From the NCBI GenBank assembly GCA_031281695.1, contig JAITFB010000042.1, positions 1 through 33,364 on the forward strand: a DNA stretch of 33,364 nt, written 5' to 3'. The stretch is from Candidatus Servula neotermitis (GTDB lineage: Bacteria; Actinomycetota; Actinomycetes; Actinomycetales; Bifidobacteriaceae). Below the pieces are notes generated by a model, which had not been told where the DNA came from, did not search any database, and saw nothing but the letters and a program-made list of their open reading frames with translations. The position numbers and the translations under genes are program-made. Below, one piece after another: positions 1 through 33,364 of this stretch; position 1 is the first letter of the stretch; each line of letters opens with the position of its first letter.

Positions 1-2606
1 CCACTACTACCACAAACACCAACGCCGACAGCGCAAGCTCCGATGCTGACACCAATTATGAACTGACAACTGATAACCGGCAACTGACTACTGATAAATG
101 GGATGACTTGACTAAAAACGAACAAGCCCGGATACTAAACCAATACCGTCTCGCCTATCTTTCCGAAACCCCAGTCAATTGGGCGCCCGGTTTAGGGACA
201 GTGGTGGCTAATGAAGAAATTGCCGCTGACGGTCGAACTGAACGCGGCAATATGCCAGTCTTCCAAAAACCTTTGAAACAATGGTCGATGCGGATCACTA
301 AATATGCGCAAAGATTATTGGACGGCCTGGACACTATCGATTGGCCGGACAAAGTCAAAACTATGCAACGCAACTGGATCGGCAAATCTGAAGGCGCGCT
401 GGTCAAATTTCCGCTGGTGGACCGGGACCAAGTGTTGGAAGTTTATACCACCCGCGACGATACATTATTTGGAGCCACCTTTATGGTGATTGCGCCTGAA
501 CACGCTTTGGCAGCTCAAGTTCCAGCAGCTTGGCCGAAAAATGTCCCAGCAACTTGGACCCAAGGTTTCGCTAAACCAGCCGACGCTCTTTGGGATTATG
601 CGCAAAAAGCCAGTCGCAAAACCGCTATTGAACGGCAAGCTGAAATGGGGGACAAATCGGGCGTGTTTACTGGACTCTACGCTTTGAATCCTATTACCGG
701 AACTAAGATTCCCATTTTTGCGGCGGATTATGTTTTGATGGGATATGGAACTGGCGCGATTATGGCAGTCCCTGGAGGCGATCAACGCGATTTTGATTTT
801 GCGAAGAAATTTCAACTTCCGGTAATTTATACGGTTCAGCCCAAAGATCAGCCGCTGGACCCAACTCAAGCTTACGTAGATGATGGGGTAGTGATCAATT
901 CTCAGAACGCCGACATTAGTTTAAACGGACTCAGTATCAGTCAAGCCAAAGCCAAAATGCACACTTACATTACCGAGCAAGGGATCGGCCAACCTACCAC
1001 CAATTATCGTCTGCGCGATTGGTTATTCAGTCGCCAACGCTATTGGGGCGAACCGTTCCCTATCGTTTACGAAATCGAAACTTCAACAGCTCCAGTCGCT
1101 GAAACTAATCCGGCGTCTGTAGCGACTGACCAATGTGTCCGCCTCAGCTCAAAGACCAGTACCGACGACATTAACTCAAACACTGACACAAATCCTGCCG
1201 AACCAATCACCAACAGCGATAGCTCCACACCTGCTGTCACTGACATTAAGGCTGGACTCACAGGTACTGCTCCTACTAACGCTGAAAGATTTAACACACC
1301 AATAGCACTGCCAGAATCTATGTTGCCAGTCACTTTGCCGGAGGTGGCGGATTACACTCCCAAAACTTTTGACCCCAACGATTCTGAATCTATGCCGGAG
1401 ACCCCTTTGTCGCGCAATCAAGATTGGATGTACGTGACTTTGGATTTGGGCGATGGGCCTAAACTATATCGCCGCGACGCTAATGTGATGCCCAACTGGG
1501 CGGGGAGTTGCTGGTATTATTTGCGTTACGCGGATCCGCATTATTCAACTTTAGCGGAGAATCCAGCCAGCGTTTCGGAGTTCGATTCCGATCAATTGGT
1601 TCGGCCGGCCGAAGATCAGTATTGGCTGGGGCCTAATCATAATCAGTATAGTGGCGATTCGGGTGGAGTGGATTTATACGTTGGCGGGGTGGAGCATGCG
1701 GTTTTACATTTGCTTTATGCGCGGTTTTGGCACATGGTTTTGCACGATTTGGGTTATGTCAGTGCGCCGGAGCCGTTTCATAAATTGTTCAATCAAGGCT
1801 ATATTCAAGCTTACGCTTATGTGGATAGTCGCGGCTCTTATGTGCCGGCTTCCGAGGTGGTGGAAGTTGAACCTGGCCGCTTTGAATATCAAGGCGAACC
1901 AGTCACGCAAGAATACGGAAAAATTGGTAAGAGTTTGAAAAACGTGGTTACTCAAGATCAAATCATTGAAGAATATGGCGCGGATACTTTTCGACTTTAC
2001 GAAATGTCCATGGGGCCGCTGGATATTTCTCGGCCTTGGGATACTCGGGCTATTGTGGGATCATTCCGGTTTTTACAAAGACTTTGGCGCAATGTAATCG
2101 ACGAGGAAACTGGCGCAGTCACTGTCCAAAATGTGACGCCCACTATTGAAACGCTTAAAGTGTTGAATAAAGTAATCCACGATGTGATTCGGGAAATGGA
2201 AGCTTTTCGACCCAATACTGCCATTGCGCGTTTAATCGAGTTGAACAATCATTTGACTACGCTGGAAATTGTTCCTCGATCCGCGGTGGAAGATTTGTTG
2301 AAAATGTTAGCGCCGATTGCTCCGCACATTGCCGAAGAACTTTGGCATAAATTAGGCCATACGGACACTATTACTTTGCAAGCTTTTCCAGCCGCTGATC
2401 CAGCTTATTTAGTCTCGGAAACTGTCACTTGCATTGTGCAAATCAACGGTAAATTACGAGCCAAATTGGAAGTCGATCCTGACATCACCGCTGAACAACT
2501 GGAACAACTGGCTTTAGCGGATCCGAAAGTCCAACAATTCTTAGCTGGCACCACTCCTAAAAAAGTAATTGTAAAACAACCTAAAGTAGTCTCGATAGTT
2601 TTGTAA
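1..2606 (+). CDS. leuS: Leucyl-tRNA synthetase, 5'-truncated by the window edge
   Basis: Class I aminoacyl-tRNA synthetase that charges tRNA-Leu in the cytoplasm. The ORF track starts at a TTG at 108, but the frame is open back to base 3 and the HIGH-motif catalytic region is missing, so the true start lies upstream. Visible parts in order: the actinobacterial-type VNWAPGLGTV segment, the CP1 editing domain (TTRDDTLFGATF and MAVPGGDQRDFDFA, with G where VPGHD is usual), the second half of the Rossmann fold (LYVGGVEHAVLHLLYARFW), the KIGKS version of KMSKS, the anticodon-binding domain and the C-terminal domain. Two low-complexity insertions interrupt it: a T/N/D/S-rich stretch at bases 3-98 and about 70-76 residues at 1077-1304 between FPIVYE and ALPESMLPVTLPE. 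All catalytic blocks around them are intact, so it is probably functional. It is convergent with nagB. Confidence 0.95.
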   Translation, partial: TTTTNTNADSASSDADTNYELTTDNRQLTTDKWDDLTKNEQARILNQYRLAYLSETPVNWAPGLGTVVANEEIAADGRTERGNMPVFQKPLKQWSMRITKYAQRLLDGLDTIDWPDKVKTMQRNWIGKSEGALVKFPLVDRDQVLEVYTTRDDTLFGATFMVIAPEHALAAQVPAAWPKNVPATWTQGFAKPADALWDYAQKASRKTAIERQAEMGDKSGVFTGLYALNPITGTKIPIFAADYVLMGYGTGAIMAVPGGDQRDFDFAKKFQLPVIYTVQPKDQPLDPTQAYVDDGVVINSQNADISLNGLSISQAKAKMHTYITEQGIGQPTTNYRLRDWLFSRQRYWGEPFPIVYEIETSTAPVAETNPASVATDQCVRLSSKTSTDDINSNTDTNPAEPITNSDSSTPAVTDIKAGLTGTAPTNAERFNTPIALPESMLPVTLPEVADYTPKTFDPNDSESMPETPLSRNQDWMYVTLDLGDGPKLYRRDANVMPNWAGSCWYYLRYADPHYSTLAENPASVSEFDSDQLVRPAEDQYWLGPNHNQYSGDSGGVDLYVGGVEHAVLHLLYARFWHMVLHDLGYVSAPEPFHKLFNQGYIQAYAYVDSRGSYVPASEVVEVEPGRFEYQGEPVTQEYGKIGKSLKNVVTQDQIIEEYGADTFRLYEMSMGPLDISRPWDTRAIVGSFRFLQRLWRNVIDEETGAVTVQNVTPTIETLKVLNKVIHDVIREMEAFRPNTAIARLIELNNHLTTLEIVPRSAVEDLLKMLAPIAPHIAEELWHKLGHTDTITLQAFPAADPAYLVSETVTCIVQINGKLRAKLEVDPDITAEQLEQLALADPKVQQFLAGTTPKKVIVKQPKVVSIVL
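61..95 (+). repeat. In-gene heptamer array within leuS
   Basis: Units AACTGAC, AACTGAT, AACCGGC, AACTGAC, TACTGAT. Open in the leuS frame, encoding ELTTD and QLTTD repeats just before the conserved WDDLTKNEQ segment. Confidence 0.75.
1119..1144 (+). repeat. Palindromic repeat family member inside leuS, copy A
   Basis: Aligns by eye with intergenic 9110-9136 at 22 of 27 positions with one gap (shared GTGTCCGCCT end). Lies within the roughly 76-codon insertion. Confidence 0.5.
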
Positions 2607-4533: not shown

Positions 4534-5211
4534 CTAAATAGAATCTAGGTACTTAGCGTCAGTGTTCAAACGCTCGGTCAGTTCTTTAATCTCTTGGTCA
4601 AAATGATGCATTAATTTCAAATTGGGTAGTTCTTCTAATCTAATCCATCGAGTTTCTAGGGCTTCGTGATCTAAGTTGACAGGAGTAATTGGGTCTTGAG
4701 GATTTTCTAATGCTAAAATCGTAGTGAAGTGCCAATTTTTATGGTCGCGAATAATTTGATCCACAATCCTAATTTGCTCAGGTTTTATTCCAGCTTCTTC
4801 ATATGCTTCTCGGAGTGCACCTTCTAGATCAGATTCGCCATCAGCTAAAGCGCCACCTGGAATGCCCCATGTCTCGCCGTGCGTAACCCAAGGCGCTCTT
4901 AATTGTAGAAGTAAATGAGTCACCTCGTTGCTGTCGGCGTTTTTACTTTTATAATTTTCAGTGCTGGTACCTACTTTGATACGGTCGTCATTTTTCGTTT
5001 GGGATATGTTATTTTTAATTATCTCGGTGTCGGAGTCCGAGCGTTGACTTATGTTAGATGACGAACGGCTACTTTGGACTTTTCTTGCTACAAGTATGCC
5101 CGCAGCCCCATTCAATCCCCAATGTTCTCGTCCGCAAAATTCGCATTTAATGAAGCCATCTCCTGGATGTTGGATCCTAGGGGCTAATTTAGAATGATTT
5201 GTTTCGCTCAT
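4534..5211 (-). CDS. NUDIX hydrolase with low-complexity insertion
   Basis: NUDIX-fold pyrophosphohydrolase, 225 residues, substrate unknown. The N-terminus has a CEFCGREHWGLNGAAGIL segment that I recall from actinobacterial NUDIX proteins. The Nudix box is complete near residues 116-138: G-x5-E (GALADGE), seven residues, then REAYEEAGI. Between the first strand (GILVAR) and the next (HLLLQLRAPW) lies an extra Ser/Asn/Asp/Lys-rich stretch of about 53 residues (bases 4924-5082). It interrupts a conserved beta hairpin without touching the catalytic box. TAAACT-N6-ATG precedes the start, and the gene is divergent from the aminotransferase across only 39 bp. Confidence 0.9.
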   Translation of the reverse strand: MSETNHSKLAPRIQHPGDGFIKCEFCGREHWGLNGAAGILVARKVQSSRSSSNISQRSDSDTEIIKNNISQTKNDDRIKVGTSTENYKSKNADSNEVTHLLLQLRAPWVTHGETWGIPGGALADGESDLEGALREAYEEAGIKPEQIRIVDQIIRDHKNWHFTTILALENPQDPITPVNLDHEALETRWIRLEELPNLKLMHHFDQEIKELTERLNTDAKYLDSI

Positions 5212-9109: not shown

Positions 9110-9136
9110 GTAGGGGCGTGTCCAACGTGTCCGCCT
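9110..9136 (+). repeat. Palindromic intergenic repeat GTAGGGGCG...GTCCGCC, copy B
   Basis: 27-bp imperfect palindrome between ppc and the AI-2E gene. By eye it matches 22 of 27 positions with bases 1119-1144 inside leuS. It shares both ends with 32980-33005. Confidence 0.6.
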
Positions 9137-12861: not shown

Positions 12862-13826
12862 CTGCTCAGATTTTAGACGGTAAATTGTTGGCGCAAACTA
12901 TTAAACAACAATTGCGGGAGCGTTTGCACCATGCAGATCGTCCAGTTGGTCTAGGAACTATTTTAGTAGGAGACGATCCAGCTAGCCAAAAATATGTGGC
13001 TATGAAACAACAAGATTGTCAAGAAGTAGGGATTCAATCGATTCCAATTCATTTACCAGCAAGCGCCAGCTCAACTGAAGTCTTAGCGGCAGTTGATCAA
13101 TTGAACGCCGACCCCGCTTGTACTGGTTTTATTGTGCAATTACCTCTGCCAGCTAAGATCGATGCCAATGCAGTGCTGGAAAGAATTTCACCAACTAAAG
13201 ACGCTGACGGTTTACATCCTAATAATTTGGGTAAATTAGTTTTGCAAGTTGACCAGCCGATTGATTCGCCCTTGCCTTGCACGCCTTTGGGTATTGTTAC
13301 CCTGTTACAGCATTATCAATTGGATTTGGCTGGGAAAACGGCTGTGATTTTAGGTCGGGGAATTACTGCTGGACGACCGCTGGCTCTACTGCTTTCGCGT
13401 AAAAGTATCAACGCCACAGTAACTATGGCTCATTCTCAGACTGCCGATCTACCAGCCTTGATCAAGTCCGCTGATTTATTGGTCGCTGCTATCGGTAAGC
13501 CGCACTTTGTCCAACCGCAATGGATTAAACCGGGCGCAATTGTGGTCGACGTAGGCGTGTCTCGCGTTTCTGTTCCAGTGGCTAACGAGTCAAGGCTAAG
13601 ACCAGTATCACCAGCTGCGTCAGACTCTGTTTCAGTGTCTTCAAATTATGGCACAAACTCCTCGCTCATCACTCCTCGCTCATCACTGGCATCAACCAAA
13701 ATTGTGGGCGACGTCGATCCTGAAGTAGCCGAGCTGGCTGGCTGGTTGACCCCCAATCCTGGCGGGGTTGGACCTATGACCCGCGTGATGTTGCTTAAGA
13801 ACGTCGTGGATTTAGGAAACTTTTGA
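12858..13826 (+). CDS. folD: Bifunctional methylenetetrahydrofolate dehydrogenase/cyclohydrolase, with insertion
   Basis: Interconverts 5,10-methylene-, methenyl- and 10-formyl-tetrahydrofolate with NADP(H). Motifs: [15 protein letters not shown] near 50 with the catalytic Lys, [12 protein letters not shown] near 93, the [11 protein letters not shown] block near 117, the NADP-site [14 protein letters not shown] near 167, and the C-terminal [16 protein letters not shown]. At 322 residues it is about 40 longer than usual. The excess is a Ser/Val/Pro-rich insertion of about 44 residues (bases 13569-13700) between VVDVGVSRV and [12 protein letters not shown], containing a repeated 14-bp unit. Core residues are retained. 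The 3' end overlaps the convergent aminopeptidase gene by 32 bp. Confidence 0.95.
13656..13690 (+). repeat. In-gene heptamer array within the folD insertion
   Basis: Units AACTCCT, CGCTCAT, CACTCCT, CGCTCAT, CACTGGC, i.e. a 14-bp direct repeat built from heptamers. It is in frame and encodes part of the Ser-rich loop. Confidence 0.65.
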
Positions 13827-31905: not shown

Positions 31906-31933
31906 CCTGAAAGAGGTTTTGCACAAATAAAAA
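31906..31933 (+). repeat. Left inverted repeat of putative element
   Basis: Pairs with 33290-33317; 18 exact bp plus an imperfect outer part with one 1-nt gap. Confidence 0.7.
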
Positions 31934-32017
31934 TGTTATTTTAGACCCTAAAATCGGGAGATAATCTGAACTTAGCTTGCAGCAGGAGCTGCGAAACAAT
32001 GTAGAAAGGCATACCTT

Positions 32018-32959
32018 ATGAAAGAAAACCTGAAGAAAATGGATCAGATTATTTTGAAAAAACGAGAGTATTACTATTTGAATCACTACTTGGTGTTTAA
32101 ATGGTTTTTCGGCACTGAGGAGAATAAAGCGTTCTTGGCTTCATTGCTCTTCAGCATATTGGGCGGTGACAAAAGTGACTTCGACGAGTTACAGTATCTC
32201 GACCCTAATAATATCGGCGATTCGATTGACGAAAAATATACAGAAATGGATATATTCGTCCAGGATAAAACTGGTCGTTTGATTAATTTAGAAATGCAAA
32301 ATTATTCGCAATCAGATTTGGCTGAAAGAATGGTGTATTATGGTTTTCGTCTAATCGTCAGTCAATCGATTAAGGGCAAGCCGTACAGCGAATTAAAACC
32401 TGCGGTATCGATTTGGATCACTTCTCATATCCCCTGGGAGGAAGACGATGATGTGATCCACTCTTATAAACTTTTAGCAGTGAAACGTTATACAAATTTA
32501 ACTGAACTCTTCAATATTGTCACGCTCTCTCCTGATAAAATAAAAATAGATGAGCTCCCTAATATTGGTTCAGCACAACCGAGCATTGAGTTCTGGTTGG
32601 CCTTCGTGGGGGCGCAGAGTAAGGAGGAGTTAATGGCAATTGCTCAAAAGTCATCGATTATTGACCAAGCATGGAGCAAAATGAATGACTATAACATTAG
32701 TTTTGCTGATCGCTTGGCAGCTATGTCGGTTTTCAAACGTGAACAAGATATGGCATCCTTAAAAGCCAACGTAAGGATCGCTAAACAACAAGGGCTTGAG
32801 CAAGGTCTCCAACAAGGCAAACAAGAAGGTCTCGAACAAGGTCTCCAACAAGGCGAACAAAACAAACAGCGCGAAATCGCTCAGGCTATGCTCAAACGAG
32901 GGATGAACCTTGATGACATTGTCGCAGTGACCGGTCTAACCCTCGATCAACTCACTTAA
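32018..32959 (+). CDS. Rpn-family recombination-promoting nuclease / PD-(D/E)XK transposase-family protein
   Basis: 313 residues of the family annotated as Rpn or PD-(D/E)XK nuclease family transposase (PF12784 type). N-terminal YYYLNHYLVFKWFFGTEENK, then the nuclease core YTEMDIFVQDKTGRLINLEMQ at about 74-95 with Asp and E-x-Q catalytic residues, then AERMVYYGFRLI. The C-terminus is a Gln/Glu/Gly-rich repeat (QGLEQGLQQG units, about 260-285) followed by a small helical domain (MLKRGMNLDDIVAVTGLTLDQL), both typical of the family. AGAAAGG ends 9 nt before the ATG, an SD-like site unlike the leaderless neighbours. A hairpin GCAGC-AGGA-GCTGC lies at 31979-31992. Probably horizontally mobile. Confidence 0.88.
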   Translation: MKENLKKMDQIILKKREYYYLNHYLVFKWFFGTEENKAFLASLLFSILGGDKSDFDELQYLDPNNIGDSIDEKYTEMDIFVQDKTGRLINLEMQNYSQSDLAERMVYYGFRLIVSQSIKGKPYSELKPAVSIWITSHIPWEEDDDVIHSYKLLAVKRYTNLTELFNIVTLSPDKIKIDELPNIGSAQPSIEFWLAFVGAQSKEELMAIAQKSSIIDQAWSKMNDYNISFADRLAAMSVFKREQDMASLKANVRIAKQQGLEQGLQQGKQEGLEQGLQQGEQNKQREIAQAMLKRGMNLDDIVAVTGLTLDQLT

Positions 32960-32979
32960 CCCAAACCCAATCCTGCGTT

Positions 32980-33005
32980 GTAGGGGCGGATCGATGTATC
33001 CGCCC
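32980..33005 (+). repeat. Palindromic repeat GTAGGGGCGGAT...ATCCGCCC, copy C
   Basis: Perfect inverted arms GGGCGGAT/ATCCGCCC around a short loop, 20 bp after the Rpn stop. It may act as a transcript-end hairpin, though no T-tract follows. Confidence 0.7.
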
Positions 33006-33100
33006 TCTTACCCAACACATCTCCAACCTCCTGCCCACGGCTCTTTCACTTCTGGCGATCCCACCTAACCAACCCCTAGAACAATTCCCAACCCCTATGC

Positions 33101-33106
33101 TAATCT
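33101..33106 (+). promoter_or_regulatory. TANNNT box 6 nt before a small ORF
   Basis: TAATCT-ATATAT-ATG, the same geometry as the lead genes of the window. Confidence 0.35.
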
Positions 33107-33112
33107 ATATAT

Positions 33113-33214
33113 ATGTCTGCGTCAGGTCACGTCCGGAATGGTTTCGACTATTCGGGGGGGGGATTTCGGCCTTTTTTTAACGCAGGTGCAAATTTTTCGG
33201 CACCCGTTTTTTGA
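33113..33214 (+). CDS. Possible 33-codon leaderless ORF containing a G9 tract
   Basis: ATG at 33113, TGA at 33212. The product is Gly/Phe-rich (NGFDYSGGGFRPFF) with no family recognised. The G9 run (33154-33162) is inside it; removing one G would open a frame to the window end. It could be a small protein, a phase-variable start, or chance. Confidence 0.25.
   Translation: MSASGHVRNGFDYSGGGFRPFFNAGANFSAPVF
33185..33212 (+). terminator. Weak hairpin with T-run
   Basis: GGTGC-AAATTTTTCG-GCACC followed by CG and six T. The stem is only 5 bp, so this is a marginal intrinsic-terminator candidate. Confidence 0.3.
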
Positions 33215-33289
33215 AGTCGGGTCCCACCCACCCCTCCACATCCTCCCACCCCTAGAGCTTACCCCCAATTCCGGGCTCTTTCAGAAACT

Positions 33290-33317
33290 TTTTTATTTGT
33301 GCAAAACTATTTCCGAA
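33290..33317 (-). repeat. Right inverted repeat of putative element
   Basis: Reverse complement of 31916-31933 over 18 exact bp, with an imperfect outer extension. Confidence 0.7.
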
Positions 33318-33364
33318 AGGAATCATCAACCTCTTCAAAATCTCTCACCAACCCCCAAATCCCA

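Follow-up and report, generated by a model that had tools for sequence, protein, structure and literature searches.

The window analysed here is the whole of a 33,364-nucleotide contig (C16) of Candidatus Servula neotermitis, from an assembly of 1.12 Mb in 101 contigs that is 77% complete and has a GC content of 42%. It opens within leuS, the gene for leucine–tRNA ligase (LeuRS), and contains the following features.

3–2606, plus strand: leuS (TIGR00396, 672.9 bits), its 5′ end on another contig (C96)
3–107, plus strand: second low-complexity insert of leuS, with a 7-bp tandem repeat AACTGACAACTGATAACC..CAACTGACTACTGATAA (about 58–103) read as NYELTTDNRQLTTDK
1077–1304, plus strand: Ser/Thr/Asn/Asp-rich insert of leuS, 76 codons, disordered in the AlphaFold model
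1107–1115, plus strand: AATCCGGCG in leuS, resembling the AATCCTGCG that precedes the copy at 32980 (a direct reading, weak alone)
1119–1143, plus strand: GTAG-REP-like copy GTAGCGACTGACCAATGTGTCCGCC, in frame within SVATDQCVRL of LeuRS
1254–1278, minus strand: second, degenerate copy in leuS (probable), inverted, with its GTAG outward
4924–5091, minus strand: Ser/Asn/Asp-rich segment of 56 residues in a NUDIX protein, insert-like in appearance
9110–9135, plus strand: intergenic GTAG-REP copy, found by pattern and profile searches
13569–13700, plus strand: Ser-rich insert of 44 residues in folD, between VSRV and IVGDV (phmmer against 2C2X)
32980–33005, plus strand: intergenic GTAG-REP copy with a perfect hairpin, GTAGGGGCGGATcgatgtATCCGCCC (z = −2.6)

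The missing 5′ part of leuS lies on C96, which carries residues 5–142 of the LeuRS family model by profile match, and no stop codon interrupts the open reading frame across both domains. The gene is split between C96 and C16 at a repeat-rich insert made up of positions 3–107 of the window and the end of C96 (L124), and the repeat may be the cause of this contig break. The 3–107 insert matches intergenic DNA at C98, C53 and C12.

Within LeuRS, 78 residues separate FPIVY from ALPES, namely the 76 codons of 1077–1304 plus the residues EI. The same stretch, from FPIVY to the LPxxMLPV motif, measures 7–9 residues in relatives (15 LeuRS sequences and nine more from genomes of the family), so that the net gain is about 70 residues. 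The original prediction of a low-complexity insertion of about 70–76 residues at 1077–1304, where actinobacterial LeuRS have a short linker, is thus borne out on both counts. The nearest LeuRS sequences are those of the Bifidobacteriaceae MAGs Ct408_bin133, Gsp477_bin183 and Gx481_bin29, together with other Actinomycetales. A phmmer alignment to 1H3N skips residues 333–398, and in an AlphaFold model built from 25 sequences residues 326–395 have pLDDT values of about 26–32 and lack secondary structure, between strands at 319–322 and 398–400. The model is modest overall (mean pLDDT 71.7, pTM 0.47), the N-terminal part lying on the other contig, but its local reading is clear, and the structural modelling that had been suggested therefore returns a disordered insert. 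At the nucleic acid level the whole insert folds better than shuffled versions of itself (z = −2.8, 0 of 200). A LeuRS from a family genome of another genus (g4; L125, G003) carries a Ser-rich insert at a different site (EAVSSSSSAQAVPSQSSS), so that disordered inserts may occur across this group.

The repeat at 1119–1143 was scored with a profile built from 15 copies, leuS excluded. In a scan of the window this leave-one-out nhmmer profile placed leuS third, behind the intergenic hits at 32976 and 9106, with 18.8 bits and E=5.4e-5; the next best hit reached 8.1 bits. None of 40,000 shuffled versions of the insert (20,000 codon and 20,000 base shuffles) attained that score, the maximum being 10.2 bits. 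A chance match of the leuS repeat is ruled out by these shuffles and by the E value obtained with leuS left out, and the outcome that had been named as refuting the prediction, a match no better than random sequence, was not what we found. Resemblance to the intergenic copy at 9110–9135, predicted as 22/27, proved to be 21/26 with one gap, and a stronger match of 23/25 exists to the copy at C78:642; GACCAATGTGTCCG is common to the leuS and tatD copies. The inverted copy at 1254–1278 scores 4.4 bits, a value reached by 0.8% of codon shuffles, and is a probable degenerate partner in head-to-head arrangement with 1119–1143. Most GTAG families favour head-to-head dimers (PMC3733652).

The description of the leuS repeat as palindromic holds only in part. 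The sequence is a true copy of the family, but its hairpin has decayed: the segment 1110–1150 folds with z = +0.4, and, read by eye, the stem keeps 5 of its 8 pairs. The copy is therefore old, or never folded there, which counts against the explanation that we favour below. So does the fact that the repeat covers only about 25 of the 228 inserted bases, roughly a tenth, most of the insert being unassigned to any repeat family.

Across the genome the family has the consensus GTAGGGGCGG(N)A(C/T)C(A/G)NTGT(A/G)TCCGCCC; the leuS copy is of a 25-mer subtype, GTAGGGGCTGACCAATGTGTCCG(C/T)C. A 26-mer search allowing up to three mismatches recovered the 9110 copy alone; the family emerged with a pattern that left loop positions free, with BLAST and with a sequence profile. 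Scanning the genome for in-gene and intergenic copies, as had been proposed, yielded 17 copies at E<=1.3e-3, 11 of them intergenic and six in frame in open reading frames: leuS, tatD, an FtrD-like membrane protein gene (twice), an S-layer-type gene and ispD, in the part encoding the C-terminal tail. In the tail of ftsK, past the gamma domain, is a weaker copy (E=0.03). The original inventory had found the copy at 9110 but missed both that at 32980–33005 and the leuS insert at 3–107. Set against a coding fraction of 88% in the sampled part, the in-gene copies are under-represented, as expected if most insertions into genes are purged. The tatD copy sits in an insert, the TatD domain being about 84 residues longer than the Pfam model, and the ispD copy lies beyond residue ~261, where homologues end; in tatD, ispD and ftsK the copies are thus confined to non-conserved inserts or tails.

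The GTAG tag is invariant in all 13 aligned copies, where it is unpaired, terminal and adjoins a short palindrome. The 8-pair stem is 86.5% paired, compared with 31–52% when slid. One stem pair has changed on both sides (CG to UA, in three copies), but covariation does not exceed that of shuffled controls, so covariation as proof of an RNA role is unsupported. No RAYT or Y1 transposase (PF01797) was found in this 77%-complete assembly, which lowers the case for strict membership of the GTAG-REPs, hence the term ‘GTAG-REP-like’, and also counts against the favoured explanation. The profile gave no match at E<=0.001 in 120 other genomes of the family; the three nearest termite MAGs alone gave weak matches, the best at E 0.007. 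The bare hairpin pattern is matched with 1–2 mismatches in 8 of 396 other genomes of the phylum, none of which has the family loop CGATGT.

Two further classes of repeat share the habit of occurring both between and within genes. Cyanobacterial heptanucleotide short tandem repeats (STRRs) are 7-bp units in short intergenic arrays, and the 7-bp tandem repeats found here (types CAGTAGT, CTAATTC, TTAACTA and CAACTGA) form similar intergenic arrays; the units differ, however, and some arrays are in frame in genes, essential ones among them: leuS (3–107), guaA, the FtrD-like gene, the S-layer-type gene and ftsK. The third class, a composite element of 90–120 bp encoding (E)DSLQYQGxSASGSxxExxSDLPSxICHL, is the clearest RPE-like element in this genome. 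Six conserved genes carry it in frame, namely polA, a Xer recombinase gene, gatA (at the C-terminus), obg, ispF and a DUF6541 gene, and it is intergenic at C44 and C59. Its ends are CAGAAGACAG and CATCTGTCATCTG (gene copies L206:2636-2755, L213, L215, L216, L217 and L214, on C92, C39, C85, C38 and C95). In obg the element fills the gap from LKR to the strand before NKID, and in Xer it lies within residues 48–112, a stretch left out of the XerD match. Of the six frames, two stay open across the core in almost every copy, yet the polar one is used every time; differences between copies fall on the three codon positions as 97/65/83, with no third-position excess. Taken together, these two observations fit spread at the DNA level with survival of a harmless frame. 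Two of three copies tested have a strong predicted fold. The composite element had no match in 150 sampled family genomes and the REP none in its 120, so that, as far as these samples go, both seem to be expansions of this lineage.

Rickettsia is the best-known source of palindromic repeats that code for protein. The Rickettsia palindromic elements (RPEs) are 100–150 bp long and lie between genes and in frame in conserved protein genes of a reduced genome (Ogata et al., reviewed in PMC2229807). The composite element is similar in size, in its distribution over genes and intergenic DNA, and in its reduced host genome, though that host is an unrelated bacterium. GTAG-tagged REPs are palindromes of 20–40 bp with an unpaired GTAG at one end and a stem of 6–9 bp (Di Nocera, De Gregorio and Rocco 2013, PMC3733652). 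They occur as singles and inverted pairs, mostly between genes, although some are in frame in genes that include those for tRNA synthetases and DNA polymerase I; they have been reported in Proteobacteria, Cyanobacteria, Chloroflexi and the PVC group, with no mention of Actinobacteria, and REPtrons are missing in some species (PMC3733652), the RAYT being often but not always present. The repeat described here shares the tag, the palindrome, the single and inverted arrangement and the mostly intergenic position with some copies in frame, but differs in its actinobacterial host, in that RAYT was not found, and in occurring within genes alongside two further classes of repeat. The RPEs of R. conorii are tagged CGTC (PMC3733652), and the tag as described there sets them apart from the GTAG repeat of this genome. 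Judged by its sequence, the family is best filed as GTAG-REP-like, one that would work like the RPEs and is not a member of that family.

We consider it likely that non-coding repeats have spread in this genome and entered genes where they were tolerated, the LeuRS loop being one such place. The GTAG-REP-like palindrome, the 7-bp tandem repeats and the composite element would be copied or transposed around the chromosome, and those landing in genes would persist only in surface loops, linkers or tails, and only when in frame and free of stops. The extra LeuRS loop, some 70 residues long, is placed on the hairpin that runs from the strand ending in PFPIVY to the ALPE strand, and the REP copy within it is probably one member of an inverted pair. 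Once translated, the insert would be disordered and polar, and most likely neutral or a mild cost to the enzyme, and a small, drift-prone genome would have left it unpurged; inserts in the other essential enzymes would likewise be expected to form flexible loops or tails. The earlier suggestion of a mobile repeat captured as a protein loop, akin in concept to the RPEs, gains support from the occurrence of the same repeat between genes and in frame in other conserved genes, and of the other classes likewise; precedents for it are described in PMC3733652 and PMC2229807.

Agreement with this picture on everything but the order of events is found in a reading that we regard as possible, if less probable, in which mutation and slippage grow disordered Ser/Thr/Asn/Asp-rich loops and the repeats land later, so that a repeat marks a loop rather than having created it. 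A 253-kb sample (20 contigs, many chosen for holding matches, plus the window, so that frequencies are not unbiased) contains 44 Ser/Thr/Asn/Asp/Gln-rich segments among 198 open reading frames. Most of these are without a recognised repeat, as loops grown first would be, and their codon usage and GC3 are near those of other genes (0.387 versus 0.390), so that they look like established coding sequence, perhaps of long standing. The Ser-rich LeuRS insert of the g4 relative, at another site, also fits such growth. In favour of repeat entry, nine of the 44 segments match intergenic DNA at E<=0.01, while codon-shuffled controls gave no matching segment in 19 of 20 replicates and one in the other, and 11.8% of 10-nt bins in the segments match intergenic DNA compared with 1.1% in other coding sequence. 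The obg and Xer inserts, moreover, nearly coincide with the composite element and leave little loop beyond it, which argues against loops that preceded their repeats. The catalytic domain of methionyl-tRNA synthetase (L208:1663-3666, on C98) has an insertion of about 75 residues rich in Ser, Thr, Ala and Asp. The segments of FolD, the NUDIX protein and MetRS hold no recognised repeat, and this counts against entry of repeats as the explanation.

Retention of the inserts because they alter the enzymes, for example in regulation, localisation or stability, we think unlikely. Many essential enzymes are affected and the composite element is always read in one frame, as selection might have it, yet its copies diverge without a third-position excess, the proteins are unrelated and disorder is predicted (for LeuRS only); in Rickettsia, an RPE-bearing guanylate kinase is active with changed affinity and was judged neutral or slightly impaired (PMC2229807). 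Chance resemblance or assembly error is very improbable, for although the leuS copy is degenerate and the assembly fragmented, the reading frame is open through both domains and the same pattern recurs in many genes.

Endosymbiotic Bifidobacteriaceae of termite-gut flagellates include Servula, with a genome of 1.61 Mb and 42.0% GC (PMC11707648); the sole mention of ‘repeat’ in the main text of that paper concerns CRISPR, and a literature search on GTAGGGGCG and STRR returned nothing useful. We lean, by a small measure, towards the view that RPE-like coding repeats arose independently in this reduced genome, which probably belongs to an endosymbiont of termite flagellates, with at least three unrelated classes in frame in essential genes, on a larger scale than one family and accounting for much of the disordered-loop load of the genome. 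If true, the phenomenon known from Rickettsia would have arisen a second time, in an actinobacterium. With several repeat classes in polA, obg, leuS, ispF, guaA and other genes, one can test whether the repeat load of a reduced genome itself drives the growth of disordered segments, and these genes supply many natural pairs of enzymes with and without inserts for assay.

The surroundings of the intergenic copy at 32980 have features of their own. The stretch 31921–32293, which covers the start of an open reading frame, is 73% identical to a stretch of C53 (C53:11277, L198), and a 22-bp sequence, GTTTTGCACAAATAAAAATGTT, has inverted copies at 31916–31937 and 33286–33307 that flank both that reading frame and the GTAG-REP copy. 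The region 31916–33364 is possibly a separate mobile unit.
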